In this document: positions 10,178 to 38,587 of the stretch, one piece after another
Position numbering within the stretch: the stretch's first letter is position 1
How the letters are laid out: every line of letters begins with the position of its first letter
Source: an uncultured Eubacteriales bacterium
GTDB lineage: Bacteria > Bacillota > Clostridia > Christensenellales > Aristaeellaceae
DNA: 42,945 nt
Direction: 5' to 3'
NCBI GenBank assembly: GCA_902798105.1
Contig: CADBVG010000037.1
Span: forward strand, 1 to 42,945
Made by a program: the position numbers and the translations under genes
The notes under the pieces: generated by a model
What the model saw: the letters and a program-made list of their open reading frames with translations, nothing else
What the model was told of the DNA's origin: nothing
The model's database searches: none

Positions 10178-11089
10178 TTGAAACGATACGAACGCCTGAA
10201 AGCAGCGGGCATCCGCATCCCGCAGATGCTGGCCATCGACATAGACGACGAGCGCATCGCAAAGACGTACATCGAGGGCCCGACCATCTTTGAACTGGTG
10301 CGGGACGGAATATCCGTCTCACCTTACCTGCCGCAGGTGCGCGACATGGCCGAAAAGGCGAAGGCTGCCGGGCTGAACATCGACTGGTTTCCCACCAATT
10401 TCGTGGTGAGGGACGGGCTGATCTGGTATGTGGATTACGAGTGCAATGCGTACATGGACGAGTGGAGCTTTGAAAGCTGGGGCGTCCGGTACTGGAGCCG
10501 GACGCCGGAGTTTGAATCGTATCTTAAAGACCACGATCCCACAATCACGATCCGGGAAGAGCGTCTCACAGCGGGGGAATACATCAACTTTCTCAAGCGC
10601 AGCGATTTGGGCTCCCAGTATCCCAGAGAGCGGTTTGAGGAGAGAATATCCCGGCTGGTAAAGACAGTATCCATCAGCCTTGCAGCCCGCAATGCGCAGA
10701 ACCTGCTGGTAGGCGTACTGTTCGGACTGACAGATTACGCCTACTGGCTGTACATCACCGATCTGGGGGTGGACAGGGATTATACCCGCCAGGGCATCGG
10801 CAGCCGCCTGATGGAAATCGCTCATCAGCTGGCTGGCGGAGAAAAGGACATCGCGGTGTATCTTATTGCGAATGAAAAAGCCATCCCATTTTATAAAAAG
10901 CTCGGCATGAAAAAGGCGGAGGATGTCATGCGGATCCTGGGGCTGACCGCTTCTCCTGCGCCGGACACAGGCAGGCCCGAAGTTGGCCGGCAGCGGTATG
11001 ACAGACTGGATTTTATAGAGCGGGAAAAAAGAGACAGGCGTTTGACCTGTTTTCGGGATGGGACAACCCAGTGTGTCGATATAATTTAA
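10178..11089 (+). CDS. Kinase C-lobe remnant fused to a GNAT acetyltransferase
   Basis: The frame opens at TTG 10178, nine bases after the LysR stop, with no ribosome-binding site. Residues 1-120 resemble the C-lobe of a small RIO/aminoglycoside-type kinase: a catalytic-loop-like LNIDWFPTNFVV near 65-77 and a metal-binding DYE near 86. The whole N-lobe (Gly-rich loop and Lys) is absent, so it cannot phosphorylate in the normal way. Residues 125-265 form a GNAT domain with the acetyl-CoA loop TRQGIGSRLM and an AIPFYKKLGMKKAE tail. The upstream part was probably lost in a deletion that ended next to the LysR gene. The GNAT part may still work if translated. Confidence 0.6.
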   Translation: MKRYERLKAAGIRIPQMLAIDIDDERIAKTYIEGPTIFELVRDGISVSPYLPQVRDMAEKAKAAGLNIDWFPTNFVVRDGLIWYVDYECNAYMDEWSFESWGVRYWSRTPEFESYLKDHDPTITIREERLTAGEYINFLKRSDLGSQYPRERFEERISRLVKTVSISLAARNAQNLLVGVLFGLTDYAYWLYITDLGVDRDYTRQGIGSRLMEIAHQLAGGEKDIAVYLIANEKAIPFYKKLGMKKAEDVMRILGLTASPAPDTGRPEVGRQRYDRLDFIEREKRDRRLTCFRDGTTQCVDII

Positions 11090-11101
11090 CGTGATAAAGA
11101 G

Positions 11102-11130
11102 TTGACACAACATTGGGAACACGGTATAAT
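11102..11130 (+). promoter_or_regulatory. Consensus sigma-A promoter of the T-box operon
   Basis: TTGACA, exactly 17 bp, then TATAAT. This is the best promoter in the window. Transcription should begin near 11137, immediately before the T-box stem I. Confidence 0.85.
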
Positions 11131-11136
11131 ATGCAA

Positions 11137-11401
11137 AACCAATGAGAAAGAGTAAGTAATCGCCGTTGAGTCCTTTGCAGAGAGCCGTCGATGGTGGAAG
11201 CACGGCAGGACGATAGCGATGAATGGTCTTTCGAGGGCGAACAGAAAGCCGTCGGGCGAGTATGCGAGACGGAGCGGGCACTTCGTTAACAAGGCCGGCA
11301 TATGGAATGTATGCGCAGAGCGGGCGCTTATGCGCCAAGCCGGGTGGTACCGCAGGAATATTACGTCCTGTCCCAGCAATGATTTGTTGGGGCAGTTTTT
11401 T
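11137..11401 (+). ncRNA. T-box riboswitch, apparent Trp (TGG) specifier
   Basis: The leader has the hallmarks of a tRNA-sensing T-box: an AGTAA internal loop near 11151, the apical AGAGAG (11179-11184) and GGTGGAAGC (11193-11201) of stem I, and the conserved T-box sequence GGGTGGTACCGC (11342-11353), which pairs with the tRNA acceptor end. An intrinsic terminator (11368-11401) follows. On the 3' side of stem I, GAA is followed by TGG (11224-11226) and then TCTTTCGAG, the usual position of the specifier codon, so uncharged tRNA-Trp should promote read-through. The downstream TrpXYZ-type importer fits that reading. The T-box is certain; the codon assignment is less so. Confidence 0.9.
11368..11401 (+). 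terminator. T-box-controlled intrinsic terminator
   Basis: CTGTCCCA/TGGGGCAG, an 8-bp stem with one G-U pair, is followed by six T residues. It competes with the antiterminator formed around the T-box sequence at 11342. Confidence 0.8.
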
Positions 11402-11520
11402 ATTGGAATTGTACACGATCAGGAAAACGAAACGATCTCCGGGTTGGCGGGTTCTGTTGCCGCAGGCCTGGCGAAGCGTTCAGGGATACGTTGACAATCA
11501 TTCGAAAGGGAGGCAGACCA

Positions 11521-12453
11521 ATGCACGCGAAAATCGCGATTTTAGGCGCAGGACATGTCGGGTCCCACGTTGGACGTGCGCTGGCGGCGGGAAGCGTCTG
11601 TGACGAGATCGTACTGATCGACAAGCTGCCGGAAAAGGCGTCGGCGCAGGCCATGGACATCGCCGACGCGCTGAGCTTTCCACCGTATGATACGCGGGTT
11701 TACACCGGGGATTACGCCGATTGCGCCGATGCGGATATCACCGTGGTGGCCATCGGCAAGGCCAGGGCGCCGGGGCAGACGCGACTGGATCTGCTGGGAG
11801 ATTCCGTGCGCATGGCGCATGAGCTGGCGGGCCAGCTTCGCGCAGGCGGCGTCGGCGGACTGCTCATCAGCATCACCAATCCCTGCGACATCATCTCGGG
11901 ATGCCTGAGGGCGCTGTTGGGCCTGGATCGCCTGCGGGCGTTCGGCACGGGCACGCTGCTGGATACGGCGCGGCTGATCCGCGTGCTCTCCGAACAGACC
12001 GGCGTGGCGCGGCATGACGTGGGAGCTTGCGTGCTGGGCGAGCACGGCGATTCCTCAATGATTCCCTTTTCAGCGCTGCGCATCGGGGGAAGGGCTGCCC
12101 CCGATGTGCCCGGCTTCGACCCCGGGCAGGCACTTGAACGCACCCACGGCATCGGCATGGACATCATCGAGGGCAAGGACTCCACGGAATTTGGCATCGG
12201 TCAGGCGACGGCCTGGCTGTGCCAGGCGATCCTGACCGACGCCGGGGCAGTGCTTCCGCTCTCGGTCGGGTTGGAGGGGGAGTACGGCCTGGGTGGCATC
12301 AACTGCGGCGTGCCCTGCGTCGTCGGACGTCGGGGCATCGAGCGCATCGTCGAGCTGCCGCTGACGGAGACGGAGCACCAAGCCCTGCTGGCCTCGGCAG
12401 CCGTCCTGGAAAAGCACACGCGCCTCGCGAATCAGATTCTCGCGGGCCTGTGA
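11521..12453 (+). CDS. L-2-hydroxyacid (lactate/malate-type) dehydrogenase
   Basis: A 310-residue NAD-dependent dehydrogenase of the LDH/MDH family. It has the Rossmann loop GAGHVGSH (8-15), the ITNPCDII strand, DTAR with the substrate-binding Arg, and the catalytic His175 in GEHGDS. At the active-site loop the family's specificity position (Gln102 in LDH, Arg102 in MDH) is Arg82 in ARAPGQTR, which argues against plain pyruvate as substrate. Start: ATG 11521 after AAAGGGAGG. It is the first gene behind the Trp T-box and sits 28 bp before a Trp-type importer, so a role on an aromatic or related 2-oxoacid is possible. Malate and other 2-hydroxyacids remain open. Confidence 0.85.
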   Translation: MHAKIAILGAGHVGSHVGRALAAGSVCDEIVLIDKLPEKASAQAMDIADALSFPPYDTRVYTGDYADCADADITVVAIGKARAPGQTRLDLLGDSVRMAHELAGQLRAGGVGGLLISITNPCDIISGCLRALLGLDRLRAFGTGTLLDTARLIRVLSEQTGVARHDVGACVLGEHGDSSMIPFSALRIGGRAAPDVPGFDPGQALERTHGIGMDIIEGKDSTEFGIGQATAWLCQAILTDAGAVLPLSVGLEGEYGLGGINCGVPCVVGRRGIERIVELPLTETEHQALLASAAVLEKHTRLANQILAGL

Positions 12454-12481
12454 TATATCGACCCATCAAGGAGGTAGCATC

Positions 12482-13477
12482 ATGTTCCATCACAACATCT
12501 TCCGCCGCATCCTCTGCACCGCCTTCATCCTGACGCTTGTTCTATCCGCCCTCGGCGCCGCGCTTGCCGACACCGTGCGCGTGGCCGTTGTCCAGCCGCT
12601 GAGCCACACCTCCCTCAACCAGATCCGGGACACCATCGTCTCCGAGCTGGAAGCCAGCGACATCGACTTTGAGATCGTCACCCGAAACGCCGAGGGCGAT
12701 TCCGCGGCGCTTTCCACGATCCTGGAAAACGTGAAGTCGGACGGGGTGGACATCCTGGTGCCCATCGCCACCAATACCGCCCAGTCCGCCAAGATGGTGT
12801 TTGAAGACACCGGCATCCCGGTGGTGTTCGCGGCGGTGTCCGATCCCGTGGCCGCCGGCCTGACTGGCGACGACTGTGGGTTCATCACCGGCGTCTCGAA
12901 CAACATCCCCGCCGCTGAGATCGTGAACCTGATCTCGGACTTCCAGCCGGATTACAGGCTCATCGGCTTTCTGTACACGTCCTCGGAGACCAACTCCGTC
13001 TCCACCATCAACGCGGCGAAGGCTTATTGTGACGCGAACGGCATCGCCTACGAGGAGGTCTCCATCGCCAACCTGTCGGAATTGCAGACGGCGGTCGAGA
13101 CGCTGATCTCCAGGGGCGTGGACGCGCTGTACACCGGCAACGACAACTCCATCGCCTCCGCCATGTCCACCTACATCGACGCGGCTTACGAATACGGCGT
13201 CCCCGTGTACTGCGGGGCGGATTCCATGGTGGCGGACGGCGGCTTTGCCACCATCGGCGTGGACTATGTGCAGCTGGGCAGGCAGGTGGCGTCCATCGTG
13301 GCGCGCATCGCGGGCGGCGAACAGCCGGAGGACATCCCCTATGAGACGCTGGCGGACTACGCCCGCTTCGTGAACCTTCAGGCGGCTGAGCGCATCGGCA
13401 TCGAGGTGTCCGACGACATCCTGGCTGCCTACAACGTGCTCGTCGAAGCCGACGGCACCAGCCATTTCGGAGAATAA
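12482..13477 (+). CDS. trpX: TrpX-type ABC substrate-binding protein
   Basis: A 331-residue secreted protein of the ABC_sub_bind (DUF534) family, the receptor of an importer whose T-box-linked members are assigned to tryptophan or tyrosine. It has a cleavable signal peptide ending ALA-D near residue 29 and no clear lipobox. The body has two Rossmann-like lobes, with VAVVQPLSHTSLNQ at the start and VVFAAVSDPVAAGL near 120. AAGGAGG precedes the ATG. The Trp specificity rests on the TGG specifier upstream, not on recognised binding residues. Confidence 0.82.
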   Translation: MFHHNIFRRILCTAFILTLVLSALGAALADTVRVAVVQPLSHTSLNQIRDTIVSELEASDIDFEIVTRNAEGDSAALSTILENVKSDGVDILVPIATNTAQSAKMVFEDTGIPVVFAAVSDPVAAGLTGDDCGFITGVSNNIPAAEIVNLISDFQPDYRLIGFLYTSSETNSVSTINAAKAYCDANGIAYEEVSIANLSELQTAVETLISRGVDALYTGNDNSIASAMSTYIDAAYEYGVPVYCGADSMVADGGFATIGVDYVQLGRQVASIVARIAGGEQPEDIPYETLADYARFVNLQAAERIGIEVSDDILAAYNVLVEADGTSHFGE

Positions 13478-13489
13478 CAGGACGAATCA

Positions 13490-13521
13490 GCGGGACGGGG
13501 AGCCCTTTCCCCCTGTCCCGC
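13490..13521 (+). other. Intercistronic GC-rich hairpin between trpX and trpY
   Basis: GCGGGACGGGG pairs with CCCCCTGTCCCGC across a short loop and is not followed by a T run. Such hairpins after a binding-protein gene often stabilise the upstream message and so raise the receptor:permease ratio; that role is inferred. Confidence 0.6.
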
Positions 13522-13548
13522 GCCCATCGACAGAATGGAAGGCGCTCT

Positions 13549-14514
13549 ATGAACACTTTGAGTTTGCTGGTATCCGCCCTCAGCCAGGGCATGATCTACG
13601 CGCCCATGGCGCTGGGCGTATTTGTGGCGTTTCGGATATTGAACACGCCGGACCTGACCATCGACGGCAGCTTCGTGGCCGGAATGTGCGTTTGCGCCGT
13701 GGTCGCCATCGCAGGACATCCATATGCGGCGCTGGCGTGCGGGCTGCTGGCCGGCGCGCTGGCAGGGCTGGTGACGGGTCTCTTGCAGACGAAGCTGGAG
13801 ATCAACCCGATTCTCTCCGGCATACTGACCATGACGGGCCTCTACACCGTCAACTTCATGCTGTTGGGCGGCCAGTCCAACCTGTACTTGCAGCGTACGG
13901 AACTGAACAGCGCCGGGACGGAGACGCAGGTGGCCAGCGAAACGCTTTACAAATCGTTCAGGAGCTTCATGGCTGCGCTGACCGGCGACAGGAAGTTCAA
14001 CAGCAACCTGAGCGCCCTGATCGTGACGGCGCTGATCGTGGTCGTCACCGTCATCCTGCTGGCGGTGTTCTTCCGCACGCGCACAGGCATCGCCATTCGG
14101 GCCACGGGCGACAATGAGGAGATGGTGCGGTCCTCCTCCATCAACGCCGACCGGTCCCGGGTGCTGGGCATCATGATCTCCAACGCGCTGGTGGCGTTCT
14201 CCGGGGCGCTGCTCTGTGAGCAGCAGCGCTATGCCGATCTCAACTTCGGCTCGGGCATGCTGGTGGTGGGGCTGGCCTCGGTGATCATCGGCCAGGTGTT
14301 TTTCGGGAACCGGGGCGTCACCCTGGGCATTATCTCCGCGGTGGCGGGCTCGCTGGTCTATCGGGTGATCCTCCAGGTCGCCTACAAGGTGGATATGCCC
14401 AGCTACGCGGTGAAGCTGCTCAGCGCGATTATCGTCGTGATTGCCCTGACCATCCCCCGCCTCCGGCGGCTGGCCGCCCAGCGGCGCGCGGACAGGGAGG
14501 AGGAGACGGTATGA
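13549..14514 (+). CDS. trpY: TrpY-type ABC transporter permease
   Basis: A 321-residue integral membrane protein of the BPD_transp_2 (LivH/RbsC-like) class, with about eight or nine hydrophobic segments. It shows the family signatures (DLTIDGSFVAG near the N-terminus; AIRATGDNEEM in the cytoplasmic coupling region). GGAAGG stands before the ATG. Its stop overlaps the ATPase start (ATGA). It forms the channel for the substrate delivered by the upstream receptor. Confidence 0.85.
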   Translation: MNTLSLLVSALSQGMIYAPMALGVFVAFRILNTPDLTIDGSFVAGMCVCAVVAIAGHPYAALACGLLAGALAGLVTGLLQTKLEINPILSGILTMTGLYTVNFMLLGGQSNLYLQRTELNSAGTETQVASETLYKSFRSFMAALTGDRKFNSNLSALIVTALIVVVTVILLAVFFRTRTGIAIRATGDNEEMVRSSSINADRSRVLGIMISNALVAFSGALLCEQQRYADLNFGSGMLVVGLASVIIGQVFFGNRGVTLGIISAVAGSLVYRVILQVAYKVDMPSYAVKLLSAIIVVIALTIPRLRRLAAQRRADREEETV

Positions 14515-15308
14515 AGGGACTCAAACTCATCGGCATGAAAAAGACCTTTGAGCGCGGCACGCCCAACGAGAAGGTGGCGCTCAATGGGGTGGACCTCGAG
14601 GTCGCCGGGGGCGATTTCATCACCGTGCTGGGGTCCAATGGCGCGGGAAAATCGACACTGTTCAACGCCATACTGGGCAAATTCAGGCTGGACCGGGGAA
14701 AGATTTGGCTGGACGGCGAGGACATCACCCGGCAGAAGGACTACCAGCGCGCGTTGAACATCGGCTGCCTGTACCAGAATCCCTTGCGGGGCACCGCGCC
14801 GAACATGACCATCGAGGAGAACCTGGCGCTGGCGTACACGCGCAAGGCCAGCCGCAGCTTCTTCGCGGTAAATAGGAGAGACAGCGCTTATTTCCGGGAG
14901 CTGCTGAAGGAACTGGACCTGGGCCTGGAGGATCGCCTGAAGACCCGAATGGGGCTACTCTCCGGCGGCCAGCGACAGGCGGCTTCGCTGCTGATGGCCA
15001 CCATCGCCGAGCCGAAGCTGCTGCTGCTGGACGAACACACCGCTGCCCTGGACCCGGCCACGGCGGAGAAGGTGTTGGCGCTGACGAATACGATCGTGTC
15101 GAAGCGGGGCCTGACCTGCCTGATGATTACCCACAACATGCAGTCCGCGCTGGCCATGGGCAATCGCACCATTGTCATGGACAGCGGCCGCATCGTATTG
15201 GATGTTTCGGGACAGGCACGCGAAAGCATGACTGTTTCCGGCCTTTTGGACCTGTTCCGGGAGCGCTCTGGAAGAGAACTGGACAATGATCGTATGCTGC
15301 TAAGATGA
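14511..15308 (+). CDS. trpZ: TrpZ-type ABC transporter ATP-binding protein
   Basis: A 265-residue nucleotide-binding subunit with Walker A GSNGAGKST (41-49), a Q-loop (YQNPL), signature LSGGQRQ near 150, Walker B LLLLDEH and the switch His in ITHN. It is coupled by a four-base overlap to the permease. It is the last gene of the T-box operon; I see no strong terminator between it and the tRNA promoter, only a weak GCGGGA/TCCCGC pairing at 15414-15442. Confidence 0.88.
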   Translation: MKGLKLIGMKKTFERGTPNEKVALNGVDLEVAGGDFITVLGSNGAGKSTLFNAILGKFRLDRGKIWLDGEDITRQKDYQRALNIGCLYQNPLRGTAPNMTIEENLALAYTRKASRSFFAVNRRDSAYFRELLKELDLGLEDRLKTRMGLLSGGQRQAASLLMATIAEPKLLLLDEHTAALDPATAEKVLALTNTIVSKRGLTCLMITHNMQSALAMGNRTIVMDSGRIVLDVSGQARESMTVSGLLDLFRERSGRELDNDRMLLR

Positions 15309-15448
15309 AACGCGGGTGGAAAGGAGCCATTCGTTTTCAAGCAACGGCTAAAGGTGCGGTGAAAAAGATAGAAACACGCCCTGATACTGTTATGTAGTGT
15401 CCCTTTTATGCGGGAATTCCGAAATTTCCGTTAATCTCCCGCAGGGGG

Positions 15449-15478
15449 TTGACACGCCGATGAATGGCATGATATAAT
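15449..15478 (+). promoter_or_regulatory. Promoter of the tRNA cluster
   Basis: TTGACA, an 18-bp spacer and TATAAT lie 34 bp before the first tRNA. Nothing else is evident in 15309-15448. Confidence 0.75.
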
Positions 15479-15512
15479 TACTCTGTTGCTTGTGAGGCAC
15501 AGCCTCCATTGT

Positions 15513-15589
15513 CGGGGTGTGGCGCAGTTTGGTAGCGCACGTGCTTTGGGAGCATGGGGCCGCAGGTTCGAATCCTGTCACCCCGACCA
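15513..15589 (+). tRNA. tRNA-Pro (TGG)
   Basis: CGGGGTG pairs with CACCCCG. The anticodon loop TTTGGGA carries TGG, which reads Pro codons. The T-loop is GTTCGAATC. Discriminator A and CCA are encoded. Confidence 0.93.
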
Positions 15590-15593
15590 ACGC

Positions 15594-15668
15594 GACCTCT
15601 TGGTCAAGCGGTTAAGACACCGCCCTTTCACGGCGGTAACACGGGTTCGAGTCCCGTAGAGGTCGCCA
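15594..15668 (+). tRNA. tRNA-Glu (TTC)
   Basis: GACCTCT pairs with AGAGGTC. The anticodon is TTC in a CTTTCAC loop, the discriminator is G, and CCA is encoded. Only four bases separate it from tRNA-Pro, so the two are co-transcribed. A T-rich stretch (TCTTTTTTC) follows. Confidence 0.93.
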
Positions 15669-15693
15669 TCTTTTTTCTGCCATTGGGGATTGA

Positions 15694-15766
15694 GGGCCTT
15701 TAGCTCAGTGGTTAGAGCAGTCGGCTCATAACCGATCGGTCCGGGGTTCAAGTCCCTGAAGGCCCA
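15694..15766 (+). tRNA. tRNA-Met (CAT)
   Basis: GGGCCTT pairs with AAGGCCC and the anticodon is CAT. The body matches elongator Met rather than initiator (the first pair is G-C). The 3' end reads A-CTA, so CCA must be added enzymatically, unlike in its three neighbours. A modified Ile-CAT identity is less likely but cannot be excluded. Confidence 0.88.
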
Positions 15767-15772
15767 CTATAT

Positions 15773-15849
15773 GGCGCGGTAGTTCAGTTGGTTAGAATGC
15801 CAGCCTGTCACGCTGGAGGTCGAGGGTTCGAGCCCCTTCCGCGTCGCCA
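15773..15849 (+). tRNA. tRNA-Asp (GTC)
   Basis: GGCGCGG pairs with CCGCGTC (one G-U). The anticodon is GTC, the discriminator is G, and CCA is encoded. It is the last of the four-tRNA cluster. Confidence 0.93.
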
Positions 15850-15953: not shown

Positions 15954-17207
15954 TTATCCGAAAATCAGGAACATGACGACGCTGATGAGGGTGGCCGTCA
16001 GGCCCACGCAGGCCTCGAAGGGGATCAGCTTCATCCTGTCGCCGATGGACATGTTCACGCTGCCGCCGGTGGCGTGGAAGAAGGAGCCGTGGGGCAGGGA
16101 GTCTACGACCGTCGCGCCCGCGTGGACCATCGCGCCGGCGGCCAGTGCGGGCACGCCCTGCTCGATCAGGGTGGGGGCGAAGGTCTGGGCGGCGATGGTC
16201 GCGCCTGCGGTGGTGGAGGCGGTGGCCCCGGCCATCAGTATACCGGCCAGCGGGGCCAGCACGAAGGCGGGCATGTTCAGCTTCTCCAGCAGGGCGATCA
16301 CGTCGAGCGCGGAGGCCTTGATGATGCCGGCGATGGTGCCGGTGCCGATCAGCAGTATGGACACGCCGACGACCTTCGACAGGCCGAATTCGGTGATGCC
16401 CACAACGTCCCTGATGTTGCCGGTGACCAGCATGCACATGAGGCCGCCCACGGGCAGGGCGATCAGCGGGTCGATGGAGATGCCGGCGATGGGCCGCAGG
16501 GCCAGCAGCACGATCACCACCAGGGGGCCGACGATGGCGGGCAGGAACCCGGGCAGCGCGTTGTCGCTGGTCTCGATGTCGCCCTGGGCGACCTCGAGGC
16601 CGTTCTTCTTCTTGGACAGCATCGTGGAGAGCAGTATCGCCATGGCCAGCGCGAACACCGCAGGCACCAGGTTCTTGAACATCAGCGACGTCAGGTCAAC
16701 GCCGAAGGCCTCCGAGGCCGCGATGGTGTTGGGGTTGGGGGAGATGATGTTGCCCGCCTTGCCGCCGCCGATCATGGCCAGCAGCAGGCTCTGCTTGTTC
16801 AGCTTCGCCCGCTTGCCGATGGCCAGGGCGATGGGGGCCACGGTGATGACGGAGATGTCGATGAAAACGCCTACCGCGCAGATGATCATCGTCGCCAGCG
16901 CGATAGCTGCCAGTGCCAGCCGCTCGCCCATCCTGTCGACGATGGTCTCGGCGATCTTCTGGGCCGAGCCGGTCTTGATCAGCGCGCCGGCGAGTATGCC
17001 GGAGGTCATGATGCGCAGCACCGAGGACATCATGCTCTGGGCGCCGCTGACCATGGTGTTCACCGTGGTCACCAGTCCGCCGCCGCCGATGATGCCGCCG
17101 ACGAGGGCGCCCAGGATCAGGCTGTAGGCGGGGTGGACCTTTTTGATGATCAGTACGATGGCGATGGCGAGGCCGACCACGGCCCCAAGGGTGGTAAAGT
17201 CATACAT
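15954..17207 (-). CDS. GntP-family glycerate/gluconate permease
   Basis: A 417-residue polytopic membrane protein with roughly twelve hydrophobic segments, a proton-coupled symporter of the GntP family. Family signatures include GGGKAGNIISPNPNTIA in the middle and GATASTTAGATIAAQ near residue 325, followed by VDSLPHGSFFHATGG. GGAGGGCGAC precedes the ATG. It is encoded 13 bp after the glycerate kinase on the same strand, so glycerate is the likely substrate; gluconate-type acids are the alternative. Confidence 0.85.
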   Translation of the reverse strand: MYDFTTLGAVVGLAIAIVLIIKKVHPAYSLILGALVGGIIGGGGLVTTVNTMVSGAQSMMSSVLRIMTSGILAGALIKTGSAQKIAETIVDRMGERLALAAIALATMIICAVGVFIDISVITVAPIALAIGKRAKLNKQSLLLAMIGGGKAGNIISPNPNTIAASEAFGVDLTSLMFKNLVPAVFALAMAILLSTMLSKKKNGLEVAQGDIETSDNALPGFLPAIVGPLVVIVLLALRPIAGISIDPLIALPVGGLMCMLVTGNIRDVVGITEFGLSKVVGVSILLIGTGTIAGIIKASALDVIALLEKLNMPAFVLAPLAGILMAGATASTTAGATIAAQTFAPTLIEQGVPALAAGAMVHAGATVVDSLPHGSFFHATGGSVNMSIGDRMKLIPFEACVGLTATLISVVMFLIFG

Positions 17208-17220
17208 GGTGTCGCCCTCC

Positions 17221-18360
17221 TTATTTCTTCAGGTCCATGCCCGCCTTGATGAAGCGGAACATGCGCACCGCGCCCAGGTAATAGAGTTCCTCGGCCCGGC
17301 CGAGCGCTTCCTCCAGCGGCATCGGCGCGTCCACGGTGGTCATCAGCGAGGCGATGCCGTGGTCGAAGATCTGCGCGGCGCCCCGGCCCAGCGAGCCGCT
17401 CAGGCCCACGGCGATCACGCCCTTCCTTGCGGCGCGCTCGCCCACACCCTGCATCACCTTGCCGAAGCAGCTCTGCCAGTCGGTGCGGCCTTCGCCGGTG
17501 ACCACCAGGTCGGTGCCCTCCAGCCGCTGGTCGAAGCCGATCAGGTCCAGCACTGTGTCGATGCCGGACTTCATCTCGCCGCCCAGGAATACCAGCGCCG
17601 CGCCCAGGCCGCCCGCCGCGCCAGCGCCCTGTATGGCGTCGGGGTCGATGCCAAACTGCTTGCGGAGCACGTCGCGGTAGTTCACCATGCCCGCCTCCAG
17701 CCGCGCCTGCATCTCCGGCGTCGCGCCCTTCTGGGCTCCGAAGGTCCAGGTGGCGCCGTTCTCGCCGCACAGGGGGTTGGTCACGTCGCACATCACCGTG
17801 ATCCTGGCGTTGGCCAGGCGGTGGTCCAGCGTGGATACGTCGATGGCGCTGACCTTCTCCAGGTCCTCGCCCCGGCCCTCCAGCTCGTGGCCGTCGGCAT
17901 CCAGGAAGCGCACGCCCAGCGCCCGGGCGCAGCCCATGCCGCCATCGTTGGTGGCGCTGCCGCCGATGGCGATGGAGATGTCCGTGAAGCCTTGATCCAG
18001 CGCGTGGCGAATCAGCTCGCCGGTGCCGTAGCTGGTGGCCTTCAGCGGGTTGCGCTTGTCCAGCGGCACCAGGGGCAGCCCGGAGGCCGCCGCCATCTCG
18101 ATGACGGCCCGGTGGTCGTCCAGCCTGCCGTAGCGGGCGCGGACGGGCTCCATCATTGGGCCGCAGACCTCGGTCTCGATCCATTCGCCCTTCTCCGCGG
18201 CGACCACCGCGTCCGTGGTGCCTTCGCCGCCGTCGGCCACCGGCACGCCGCTGTACTCGATCTCGCCGAACACCGCTTTCGCCGCCGACGCCAGCAGCTC
18301 GACGGTTTGCTCACTGGTCAGCGTGCCCTTGAAGGAATCCGATGCAAACAGGAACCTCAT
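17221..18360 (-). CDS. Glycerate kinase (GlxK/GarK family)
   Basis: A 379-residue cytosolic kinase that phosphorylates D-glycerate, giving 2- or 3-phosphoglycerate for glycolysis. It carries the family landmarks: N-terminal ASDSFKGTLTS, VADGGEGTTDA near residue 45, GTGELIRHAL near 108, IAIGGSATNDGGMG near 123, and VTGEGRTDWQS near 287. The length is normal. GGGGAGG lies before the ATG. It forms a two-gene operon with the downstream permease and is divergent from a CdaR-type regulator that probably controls both. Confidence 0.93.
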   Translation of the reverse strand: MRFLFASDSFKGTLTSEQTVELLASAAKAVFGEIEYSGVPVADGGEGTTDAVVAAEKGEWIETEVCGPMMEPVRARYGRLDDHRAVIEMAAASGLPLVPLDKRNPLKATSYGTGELIRHALDQGFTDISIAIGGSATNDGGMGCARALGVRFLDADGHELEGRGEDLEKVSAIDVSTLDHRLANARITVMCDVTNPLCGENGATWTFGAQKGATPEMQARLEAGMVNYRDVLRKQFGIDPDAIQGAGAAGGLGAALVFLGGEMKSGIDTVLDLIGFDQRLEGTDLVVTGEGRTDWQSCFGKVMQGVGERAARKGVIAVGLSGSLGRGAAQIFDHGIASLMTTVDAPMPLEEALGRAEELYYLGAVRMFRFIKAGMDLKK

Positions 18361-18409
18361 GTGTATAACCTCCCCGTTGTTTATTTGCTGAGCTTATTGT
18401 AGCATTTTT

Positions 18410-18446
18410 CGCTATATTGTGATATATTATTGATAACAATATAGCG
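18410..18446. promoter_or_regulatory. Large palindrome, candidate CdaR operator
   Basis: CGCTATATTGT (18410-18420) and ACAATATAGCG (18436-18446) are perfect 11-bp inverted half-sites 15 bp apart, in the gap between the divergent kinase and regulator genes. On the minus strand TACAAT near 18398 is a plausible -10 for the kinase with a poor -35, as expected for an activated promoter. The binding protein is inferred from position. Confidence 0.65.
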
Positions 18447-18494
18447 ACGATAATATCAGAATAATATGTCATATAAGACAAGGAGGCGGTGCCC

Positions 18495-19628
18495 ATGCCC
18501 GCGCAGATACGCACCCAGTTGGCACAGCAGATCGTGGATACGTTGAAGACGATTTGCAGCCATGACATCAACTTCATCGACGTACAGGGGCGCATCAGCG
18601 CCAGCACCGACCCGGACCGGGTGGGCGGCTATCACGAGGGCGGCCACGAGGCGGCGAAGGCGGGCCAGATCGTCACCATTCGGCGGGACGATCCGGACCG
18701 GAATGAGCGCCGCGGCATCAACATGCCCATACGCTTCCACGGCAGCACCGTGGCGGTCATCGGCATCACCGGGGACCCTGAAGAGGTGCAGAGGTACGCC
18801 GACCTGGCCCAGCGCCTCACGCTGCTGCTGCTCCGGGAGCACGAGATCGACACCCGAAACTACGACATCCGCACGCAGACGGGCTATTTGGTGCGGGCGT
18901 TGATCGACCGGGAGACGGTGAGCCCCGCGTTTATCGCGGAGGTGCTGGAGAAGAACGGGCTGGCAGATAGGGGCGAGGCCTGGCGGACCATGGTCGTGCA
19001 GCTCCAGGAGGCCCACGCCCACCCGCTGTCTGCCATCGAGGGTGCGGTGCAGGCGGTGGTGGGGACGATGGGCAGGTGCCTGGTGGCCTACCGCTTTCCC
19101 AACGAATACGTACTGCTGGTCCGGGAGCGGGACGGCGCGCGCTGGGCGCAAGCCCTGGAAAAGCTGGCCCTCGACTGGACGGGGGACATCCGCGTGGGCA
19201 TCGGCTCGGCGCGGCGGCTGTCCCGGCAGGATCTTTCCTTCAGGGCGGCGAAGCTGGCACTGCAAAGCCTGGAGGCCGGCGATAATTTCGCCACTTATGA
19301 ATCGGTGCGCCTGGAGATACTGCTCGGCAGCGTCTCCCGGACCGCCGCCGACGCCTACCTGCAAAAGTGCCTTGGGGGTCTGGACGAGGGGGACCGGGCG
19401 CTGCTGAACCTGTACTTCGCGTCGGAAATGTCGCTGAAGGCTACGGCCCAGCGCTGCTATTTGCACATCAACACGGTCCAGTACCGCCTGCGGCGGATCA
19501 GGGACCGCTGCGGCCTGGACCCCCGGCGTTTCCGGGAGGCTTCCATGCTGTACACGGCGCTGCGACTGGAGGCGATGAACGGCGGCGGGAAGGACGCAGG
19601 CGATGCCCCACGCGCGGGGAATTTGTAA
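18495..19628 (+). CDS. CdaR-family sugar-diacid/glycerate regulator
   Basis: A 377-residue transcription factor. Residues 1-130 form the diacid-recognition domain (QIVDTLKTICSHDINFID, then a GRISASTDPDR loop). A middle GGDEF-like scaffold with no catalytic motif follows. The C-terminal PucR-type helix-turn-helix is near 325 (LHINTVQYRLRRIRDRCGLD). Start choice: ATG 18495 is 8 nt after AGGAGG; an in-frame GTG at 18489 is too close. The family activates glucarate, glycerate and related pathways when the acid is present, which fits the divergent permease-kinase pair. Confidence 0.9.
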   Translation: MPAQIRTQLAQQIVDTLKTICSHDINFIDVQGRISASTDPDRVGGYHEGGHEAAKAGQIVTIRRDDPDRNERRGINMPIRFHGSTVAVIGITGDPEEVQRYADLAQRLTLLLLREHEIDTRNYDIRTQTGYLVRALIDRETVSPAFIAEVLEKNGLADRGEAWRTMVVQLQEAHAHPLSAIEGAVQAVVGTMGRCLVAYRFPNEYVLLVRERDGARWAQALEKLALDWTGDIRVGIGSARRLSRQDLSFRAAKLALQSLEAGDNFATYESVRLEILLGSVSRTAADAYLQKCLGGLDEGDRALLNLYFASEMSLKATAQRCYLHINTVQYRLRRIRDRCGLDPRRFREASMLYTALRLEAMNGGGKDAGDAPRAGNL

Positions 19629-37114: not shown

Positions 37115-37190
<76 letters not shown>

Positions 37191-37192
37191 TT

Positions 37193-37229
37193 GAAATCCT
37201 GCAAGAGATTGCGGGATTTCGTTTTTTTT
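37193..37229 (+). terminator. Terminator of tRNA-Thr
   Basis: GAAATCCTGCA/TGCGGGATTTC (11 bp with one G-U, 6-nt loop) followed by G and eight T residues. From 37230 to 37388 there is no gene. Two similar blocks (ATCAAGTTATCAATTTTG near 37308, ATCAATTCAGTCATCAATTCC near 37383) may be integrase arm sites. Confidence 0.8.
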
Positions 37230-37388
37230 ATGCCTGTTTTTGCAGGATTCGACATGCTGTTGATGCAATTTGACGACCTCACCGCTTCGAACTATCCCCA
37301 AAATCAATCAAGTTATCAATTTTGAGGCTCTTGCGGGGGCTGAAAACGCCTGCGGCACAGGGGCTTTTGGGCATTTGTGCCGATCAAT

Positions 37389-38426
37389 TCAGTCATCAAT
37401 TCCATACGCCTTCACGATGGGGGAGGCGGTGTTCTGGCTGGTTTCACGACCCTTGACATAGTATTTCAATGTCATGGCCGCTGTTGTGTGCCCTGCGGCG
37501 GCCTGGGCACTCTTGATGTCTTTGGTGACATCGTAAATGTCAGTGAGAACCGTGGTGCGGAAGCGGCGGGGCTGGATGGGTTCGGGAAAGTTGATTTCCT
37601 TCTGGATTCTCGCACACATCCTGCGGACCTGGATGTAGGACAAGGGCTTCTCCCCGCCCAGCACAAAGTGATGGGGGAGCGTGGGCAGCAGGTATTTTTC
37701 AACCTGCGGCACAAGGGTGATGGTCCGCTTGCTTGCTTCGGTCTTCGGTTCACCCACCATGCCCAGATTTCGGGATGGGTGAGTGACCGTCCGCTGGATG
37801 TGGATGGTGTGAGCATTGAAGTCGAGGTCCTGCCATTGGAGGCCGAGCACTTCTTCGGGGCGAAGCGGATGCAACGCCGCCAGAGCGATGTAAGCCCGGT
37901 CCCTGTCGCCGCTGATGCTGTCGATGTGGGAGATCAGGTATTGCATACTCTCCACGGAATAAGGCACGGTTGCGGTGCTGGCCCTGCCCTTGATGCGAAG
38001 GCTCCGACTGTCAAGCGGGCTTTTTGTGATGAGGCCATCGTCAAGAGCCTGATTGAAAATCATGTTGAGCACACTTCGTGCCTTGTTTTTTGTGGCTTTT
38101 GTGACTTCATCCCCCATGTTGTTGAAGAAGGTCTGAATGTCAGCGGTGGTGATTTCCTCAACCAGTTTGTCTTTGAACAGGGGGAGGATGTGATGTTCAA
38201 GCTGTCGCCGATAAGTCAAACCAGTCACATAGCTGACATTCGGCTTCGAGAAGATGTTATACCAGTTCCAAGCGTATTGCTCAAAATCGTGGCCGATCAC
38301 CTTCGGTGCAGCATTACCGCAACCGAACATCTGCAACAGCTTTTCAGCATACTCTTGTTCAGTGTCAGCGGAAATCCAAGTCTTCACCCCGTTGATCATT
38401 ATGGGTCTGCGGATTTTCTTTAGCAT
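37389..38426 (-). CDS. Tyrosine recombinase/integrase
   Basis: A 345-residue phage-type integrase, the likely agent of insertion at tRNA-Thr. The N-terminal SAM-like domain is followed by the catalytic domain: first Arg in HPLRPEE near 187, Lys-bearing beta hairpin (EPKTEASKRTI), PRRFR where the family has HxxR, GHTTAAMT and Tyr in LKYY near 320. The second-box His appears to be Arg, a known but uncommon variation. Start choice: ATG 38426 lies 9 nt after AAAGGA; in-frame ATGs further out lack ribosome-binding sites. It is transcribed toward the tRNA. Confidence 0.9.
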   Translation of the reverse strand: MLKKIRRPIMINGVKTWISADTEQEYAEKLLQMFGCGNAAPKVIGHDFEQYAWNWYNIFSKPNVSYVTGLTYRRQLEHHILPLFKDKLVEEITTADIQTFFNNMGDEVTKATKNKARSVLNMIFNQALDDGLITKSPLDSRSLRIKGRASTATVPYSVESMQYLISHIDSISGDRDRAYIALAALHPLRPEEVLGLQWQDLDFNAHTIHIQRTVTHPSRNLGMVGEPKTEASKRTITLVPQVEKYLLPTLPHHFVLGGEKPLSYIQVRRMCARIQKEINFPEPIQPRRFRTTVLTDIYDVTKDIKSAQAAAGHTTAAMTLKYYVKGRETSQNTASPIVKAYGIDD

Positions 38427-38587
38427 TGTAAAGTCCTTTCCGCAAGACTTCCTGTTTGATTCCATTTTCAAGGTTCATTGTGCTACCATGAGCATTATAC
38501 CAGAAAAGATGCTTCAAGTCAGTAGATGAATACACATTTTACTACAACCATCTTCAATAATCTACAACTCAACAGAACCATCCACAA

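Follow-up and report, generated by a model that had tools for sequence, protein, structure and literature searches.

A conserved partnership of a 2-hydroxyacid dehydrogenase with a TrpXYZ-type importer under a tryptophan T-box in Clostridia

Introduction

Why does a gene for a 2-hydroxyacid dehydrogenase stand between a T-box leader of the tryptophan type and the genes of a TrpXYZ-type importer? The question is raised by positions 11102-15308 of contig CADBVG010000037.1 (assembly GCA_902798105.1, an uncultured Eubacteriales bacterium of the class Clostridia), the first 42,945 nucleotides of which were analysed and are called the window below. In this region a promoter, a T-box leader, an intrinsic terminator, a gene of the lactate/malate dehydrogenase (LDH/MDH) superfamily, and trpX, trpY and trpZ follow one another on one strand. 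Genes of tryptophan synthesis and importers are known targets of Trp T-boxes. We have searched the literature for a T-box or trpXYZ together with a lactate or malate dehydrogenase and have found no description of such a pairing among the papers listed, in agreement with an earlier reading made from the sequence alone (hereafter the sequence-only reading), which did not know it as described either.

Here we report that the partnership of the enzyme and the importer is conserved. The account that we put forward, tentatively, is that of a tryptophan-starvation uptake operon which includes a malate-type 2-hydroxyacid dehydrogenase of unsettled role.

The enzyme and the importer are conserved as a pair

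We have searched one genome each for 84,980 species with the enzyme. This gave 131 relatives, and the best 80 of the 131 were kept and all examined. In a tree built by a quick method, with support from the Shimodaira-Hasegawa-like approximate likelihood ratio test (SH-aLRT) only, a clade with a support of 99 unites 61 of the 81 rows, window included. At 42 of these 61 loci, trpXYZ homologues lie downstream on the same strand (some partial at contig ends), and at nine they are convergent with the enzyme gene; nine more have none nearby, and one is cut off. The operon form occurs in metagenome-assembled genomes (MAGs) of rumen and other gut Clostridia, in Anaeromassilibacillus, Youngiibacter and Anaerobutyricum hallii, and in other Lachnospiraceae, and the convergent form in Syntrophomonas, Herbinix, Fusibacter, Alkalibacter and others. 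At the convergent loci, a T-box-like leader with AAATGGAC stands ahead of trpX, not of the enzyme gene, in all four inspected of the nine, and no T-box reaches the Rfam cut-off in the seven scanned of the nine. One locus (L086) combines a T-box with the enzyme and gives no importer match within the following 4.6 kb. When the lists of open reading frames (ORFs) around the unlinked enzyme copies (L058, L060, L086, L098, L113, L094, L096, L097) were compared by eye, no common theme was seen among the neighbours.

The linkage was also sampled from the side of TrpX. Among 80 genomes (own included), a close TrpX (at least 87% identity) is present in six, and the enzyme gene adjoins it in five of the six. 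In the sixth genome (G023), TrpX lacks the first 114 residues, and nothing matches the enzyme at E up to 1e-30. When 391 genomes were drawn evenly from Clostridia, the class to which the window belongs (own included), the TrpX type was found at E up to 1e-60 in the own genome and two others, both of which have a convergent enzyme gene 1.7-1.8 kb off. Four further genomes of the draw carry a relative of the enzyme (39-43% identity) without the enzyme-linked TrpX type. That is, the pairing reported by the sequence-only reading for this locus is conserved in relatives, as seen from the 42 operons and nine convergent loci of the clade and from both other TrpX carriers of the even draw.

This conservation bears on the explanation that ordinary tryptophan is what the importer carries and that the operon merely includes, as a passenger, a malate or lactate dehydrogenase of the housekeeping kind. 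The linkage has been kept or regained in two arrangements, and also in the even draw, which argues against a mere passenger. In addition, the enzyme gene is present in 4 of 79 other relatives (3 of 27 within the genus), so that in this group it does not count as a housekeeping gene. On the other hand, the enzyme is the sole Ldh_1_C match in 25 of 35 chosen carrier genomes, the window's included (31 carriers have the operon form, three the convergent form and one an unlinked copy), although several of the genomes are incomplete, and MAG incompleteness weakens this single-copy count. Overall, we regard a housekeeping enzyme as improbable.

Predicted specificity of the dehydrogenase

As for the start of the enzyme, ATG at 11521 agrees with the near relatives better than TTG at 11491 of the ORF list. 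The LDH/MDH fold is confirmed in a predicted structure (predicted local distance difference test, pLDDT, 90). The His, Asp, Arg and Asn that we take to be the catalytic residues are kept in 61/61 clade rows, and Asp34, which presumably suits NAD, is invariant (17/17).

The residue of most interest is position 102 in LDH numbering, which is Arg82 in the window enzyme. It is Arg in 60 of the 61 clade rows, with one Pro (L081), and the specificity loop has a length of 10 without insertion in 60/60 clade rows. The LDHs of the alignment have Gln at this position, and the halophilic MDH shares the loop R.PGQTR.DL with the window enzyme. According to excerpts of PMC4109310 (the other papers are likewise cited from excerpts), every MDH known so far carries Arg at position 102, where canonical LDHs carry Gln, and a single Gln-to-Arg change converts a Bacillus LDH to an MDH; the opposite change does not work in two other MDHs, so that the rule does not hold without exception. 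In relatives active on aromatic oxo acids, the loop is extended by an insertion and/or position 102 is occupied by another residue (Ser, Ala), and an Ala-to-Arg change there restores oxaloacetate activity (PMC9299796). The window enzyme thus lacks the Gln102 hallmark of canonical L-LDHs and has the hallmark of LDH-like MDHs, Arg102 with an uninserted loop; the HicDH/FrsC-like aromatic hallmark, an extended loop or a residue other than Arg and Gln at 102, is absent. We infer an NAD-dependent L-2-hydroxyacid dehydrogenase whose backbone is LDH-like and whose specificity is of the malate type. The evidence at position 102 points towards oxaloacetate, and so towards one of the three outcomes by which the sequence-only reading would be refuted (an enzyme active only on oxaloacetate or pyruvate), an aromatic activity being still conceivable. 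The other two outcomes, a non-Trp codon as specifier and a gene pair that is not conserved, do not apply.

These residues bear directly on the proposal of the sequence-only reading that the dehydrogenase may interconvert indolepyruvate and indolelactate and that the operon would in this way salvage both Trp and its 2-hydroxy analogue. In the form considered here, the importer and the dehydrogenase would together recover indolelactate or indolepyruvate, or a similar indole 2-hydroxy or 2-oxo acid, from which an aminotransferase would make tryptophan. The Trp T-box agrees with such a salvage, the enzyme class acts on 2-oxo acids, and a Bifidobacterium enzyme of the LDH family prefers indolepyruvate (PMC8556157). 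The indolepyruvate/indolelactate substrate is nevertheless weakened, since Arg102 is found in 60/61 rows without a loop insertion and the aromatic-acting relatives (PMC9299796) differ there.

The T-box leader and its specifier

The score of the leader (Table 1) is below the RF00230 gathering cut-off of 93 bits, so that the curated threshold of Rfam misses it, and the match spans the full model. The own genome has 15 T-boxes, five over this cut-off and ten below, and in control genomes three of five with a match are likewise below. Stem I with the specifier loop, the T-box and the competing terminator, i.e., the structural hallmarks of RF00230, are all present in the leader, and the terminator region 11349-11402 has a z of -4.1.

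A T-box sequence lies upstream in 41 of 50 rows with an enzyme identity of at least 50% (window included). Among the nine rows without it, L103 and L107 are at contig ends and L091 is of the convergent form. In row L052, a further importer set comes immediately before the enzyme gene, with the T-box sequence ahead of that set, and in L058, L060, L082, L098 and L113 no T-box was seen in the 0.8-1.2 kb inspected. TGG stands at the specifier in all 40 readable leaders (window included), the 41st (L073) ending before stem I; the leader search strings behind these counts were picked after the leaders had been read. The Trp-type T-box with a TGG specifier, as the sequence-only reading had it, is well supported by the covariance-model alignment and by these leaders. 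Judged by anatomy and conservation, antitermination by uncharged tRNA-Trp is indicated at this leader.

The main alternative here is that the leader senses another amino acid, above all methionine. An ATG begins one base upstream of the TGG, and since this overlap is found in 39/40 leaders, the triplet by itself does not decide between Trp and Met. The T-box base that faces the discriminator is more informative: it is C (UGGC) in 35 of 41 leaders and T (UGGU) in six. The own genome's tRNA-Trp gene reads as G73, so that the C of UGGC pairs with it and the T of UGGU wobbles; the discriminator of tRNA-Met is presumably A73, which fits UGGU. UGGC in most leaders therefore suits tRNA-Trp and argues against Met. 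The window leader deviates in having a T after TGG, which could extend the stem; a purine is found there in 21 of 24 leaders of the same GAATGG form. Only the window and the two rows nearest to it, L046 and L047, combine this T with UGGU; T also follows TGG in eight leaders of another form, and these have UGGC. Moreover, L079 reads GTGG, so that ATG is impossible there (though it has UGGU), a related T-box (L007, described below) precedes a TrpB-like gene, and the binding protein has relatives of known structure with aromatic amino acids as ligands, all of which speaks against Met. Taken together, we consider it highly improbable that the leader senses an amino acid other than tryptophan. A Met specifier, possible on paper, was rejected as unlikely on the grounds of UGGC and the paralogous leader L007.

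The T after TGG and UGGU (11224-11227, 11345-11348) are the two changes that a shift to tRNA-Met would need. For the window, L046 and L047, weaker sensing of Trp is likelier than such a shift.

Other T-boxes of the own genome are also of interest. L007 (C54), with GAA-TGG and UGGC, precedes the TrpB-like gene (NF009057, 685.6 bits, cut-off 366); the genome has no TrpC match, and this combination of a Trp T-box and a TrpB-like gene is perhaps indole salvage under the same control. L001 (C57) and L003 (C8) have, by eye, the specifier TAC (Tyr) and precede aminotransferase-like and acyl-CoA ligase-like genes, which passed no NCBIfam cut-off among the rows shown. Together with the genome's gene for the alpha subunit of indolepyruvate oxidoreductase (IOR-alpha), they could serve to make aromatic amino acids out of arylacetates under the control of tyrosine.

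The importer and its binding protein

The set of ABC_sub_bind, BPD_transp_2 and ABC_tran genes is present according to Pfam, and the three-gene importer of the TrpXYZ family named by the sequence-only reading is confirmed by this set and by the solved relatives of the binding protein. The window TrpX is below the cut-off of the NCBIfam TrpX model (NF041285, 235.6 versus 390). Three solved relatives (among 3LFT, 3LKV and 6HNI) hold Trp, Phe and Tyr, and Gln at a pocket position (Gln284 of SP1069) favours Trp (PMC6816091). At two named pocket positions, 49/49 enzyme-linked TrpX agree with the Phe binder in having Ala and Tyr, and the Gln of the Trp binder is absent. Since unlinked TrpX mostly have the same residues (Ala in 22/24, Tyr in 23/24), these positions do not mark the enzyme-linked kind.

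On the other hand, position 140 in the GVS-N motif separates the two kinds clearly. It is Asn in 49/49 enzyme-linked TrpX, and Asp in 23 of 24 unlinked TrpX, both tandem neighbours and all three solved relatives. The unlinked set comprises 24 of 30 loci fetched from the relatives' genomes; the TrpX tree, with oddly long branches in unlinked rows, was used for grouping only. The partial TrpX of G023, which is outside these counts, also has Asn at 140, and as that genome gives no enzyme match, Asn marks the TrpX type. The enzyme-linked TrpX thus forms a subfamily of its own in which the change from Asp to Asn is fixed, and its ligand may be other than tryptophan. In L052 (2971-9792) and L066 (2883-9986), the enzyme gene lies between two importer sets that belong to different TrpXYZ types, and G008 has both TrpX types in one genome. 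The second type implies that the enzyme-linked importer is an extra one in these cases, which is the best support for a putative ligand other than tryptophan itself. TrpXYZ labels may thus cover more than one ligand.

These features give the salvage of an indole 2-hydroxy or 2-oxo acid further ground: the importer comes in addition to another TrpXYZ type, and the Asn that replaces the Asp of the three solved amino acid binders might suit a ligand without an amino group. Against this, the contact of Asn140 with the ligand is putative, and G023 has the Asn-type TrpX without an enzyme match. Weighing this with the Arg102 evidence, we find the salvage rather unlikely. A more specific form of it, which we consider unlikely, is that gut and rumen Clostridia short of Trp import the indole 2-hydroxy or 2-oxo acid through the altered TrpX subfamily and that the dehydrogenase, its Arg102 now serving a new purpose, oxidises this acid. 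If true, this would mean that a TrpX subfamily has moved from an amino acid to its hydroxy or oxo analogue, e.g., indolelactate, a host-active bacterial metabolite.

A tentative account of the operon

On our preferred reading of a tryptophan-starvation uptake operon, uncharged tRNA-Trp would pair with the UGG specifier and the T-box and stabilise the antiterminator, and RNA polymerase would then read into the dehydrogenase gene and trpXYZ. The importer would bring in an aromatic solute connected with the supply of tryptophan. In the simplest case, the substrate pair of the enzyme would be oxaloacetate, or a different 2-oxo acid that likewise bears a second negative charge, and the corresponding 2-hydroxy acid; the oxaloacetate-type substrate is deduced from one residue and the loop length. 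Among the roles that could connect these parts, the one towards which we lean, weakly, is that the enzyme drains the oxaloacetate arising from an aspartate-driven transamination of indolepyruvate and so pulls the reaction towards tryptophan. Proposed from the co-occurrence alone, this removal of oxaloacetate from the amino transfer between aspartate and indolepyruvate seems quite unlikely to us.

Several observations weigh against the account. We know of no reason linking malate to tryptophan. The window enzyme passes no NCBIfam model and scores higher with L-LDH (270.7, cut-off 303.55) than with MDH (best 218, cut-off 283). Of ten clade members scanned singly, four pass the L-LDH equivalog cut-off (L076, L079, L090, L115) and none the MDH one, which also favours the housekeeping enzyme considered above. 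The closest solved structures, by sequence profile and by fold, are lactate dehydrogenases, and T222 and I226, which we take to be positions 246 and 250, are LDH-like. The neighbours of certain loci suggest aromatic chemistry: in L082 (812-2343), a clade member without T-box or importer, the start of a chorismate mutase-like gene (50.9 bits, cut-off 71.2) overlaps the enzyme stop, which is also a point for the salvage, and in two loci (L099, L101) aminotransferase-like genes lie near trpXYZ. Finally, IOR-alpha and the lack of TrpC, both features of the own genome, are about as common in the relatives and give no support for the role.

The counts behind this last point are as follows. TrpC was not found in 22 of the 35 carriers (the window's genome among the 22) and in 54 of 80 relatives' genomes, so that Trp auxotrophy was rejected as a link. 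IOR-alpha is over its cut-off in 26/35 carriers and 54/80 relatives, and indolepyruvate oxidoreductase was rejected likewise. The 80 relatives' genomes include the own genome and four other carriers.

Overall, the conservation of a 2-hydroxyacid dehydrogenase under a Trp T-box suggests that the supply of tryptophan in anaerobes of the gut and rumen includes a step not described so far. Either the specificity residue does not have its usual meaning in this enzyme, or the enzyme connects malate with tryptophan, and both would be new.

Layout of the locus and its surroundings

The sequence-only reading had placed the promoter, T-box, LDH/MDH gene and trpXYZ on one strand without internal terminators, and the promoter match, RF00230, Pfam and the terminator scan agree with it in every part (Table 1). 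In the scan of the + strand from 11050 to 15560, the leader terminator is the sole terminator-like site.

Table 1 Features of the locus, in coordinates of the window
Feature	Position	Strand	Details
Sigma-70-type promoter, TTGACA-17-TATAAT	11102..11130	+	12/12 consensus positions
T-box leader (RF00230), antitermination type	11133..11373	+	80.3 bits, E 6.9e-18, model 1-219
Specifier triplet TGG (Trp)	11224..11226	+	directly 3' of the specifier-loop GAA in the model alignment
T-box UGGU, putative partner of the tRNA NCCA end	11345..11348	+	
Intrinsic terminator, competes with the antiterminator	11368..11401	+	12-pair stem (11368-11395), then TTTTTT
LDH/MDH-superfamily 2-hydroxyacid dehydrogenase, malate-type specificity residue	11521..12453	+	PF00056 and PF02866 over cut-off
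Codon of Arg82 (position 102, LDH numbering)	11764..11766	+	aligns with Gln of solved LDHs, Arg of halophilic MDH
trpX-like substrate-binding protein (ABC_sub_bind)	12482..13477	+	PF04392 208.8 bits; 3lft 4.1e-39
Codon of Asn140 in GVSN	12899..12901	+	Asp in amino-acid-binding relatives
GC-rich hairpin without T-run, between trpX and trpY	13490..13521	+	z -1.2, ordinary for its composition
trpY-like permease	13549..14514	+	PF02653 114.6 bits
trpZ-like ATPase, 4-base overlap with trpY	14511..15308	+	PF00005 100.7 bits

Just past the operon, a second perfect promoter (12/12) precedes a tRNA cluster Pro-Glu-Met-Asp (15449-15849). Further on, a GntP-type permease and a glycerate kinase with a divergent regulator of the sugar-diacid type (15954-19628) are perhaps a glycerate or sugar-acid unit. 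At 37115-38471 a phage-type integrase, encoded on the opposite strand, comes after a tRNA-Thr gene, with a helicase-like gene further along; this is perhaps a tRNA-integrated element.

Comparison with known systems

The nearest known system for the operon as a whole is trpXYZ of Streptococcus suis (PMC9382623), for which regulation by tryptophan limitation has been demonstrated. It resembles the window in the UGG specifier, the T-box, the binding protein, the permease and the ATPase. It differs in having UGGC where the window has UGGU, the word dehydrogenase occurs 0 times in that paper, and the window TrpX falls below the NCBIfam cut-off. In an earlier survey by Wels (2008, PMC2494555), Trp T-boxes are described ahead of ATP-binding cassette (ABC) importers and chorismate mutase, and this survey has dehydrogenase 0 times as well.

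For the enzyme, three kinds of relatives can be compared. The aromatic LDH of Bifidobacterium (PMC8556157) is like the window enzyme in tying the LDH family to aromatic amino acid metabolism, a likeness by description and not by sequence. Its operon has transaminase and haloacid dehalogenase genes, and the excerpts mention no T-box or importer. Bacterial L-LDHs give the best sequence and fold matches, but the window enzyme has Arg in place of their Gln102 and scores below the cut-off. The halophilic LDH-like MDHs (e.g., of Haloarcula) share with it Arg102, the R.PGQTR.DL loop and the fold (TM 0.90); compared with halophilic MDH (2hlp), the window enzyme has 34% identity, is nearer to the LDHs overall, and stands under a T-box.

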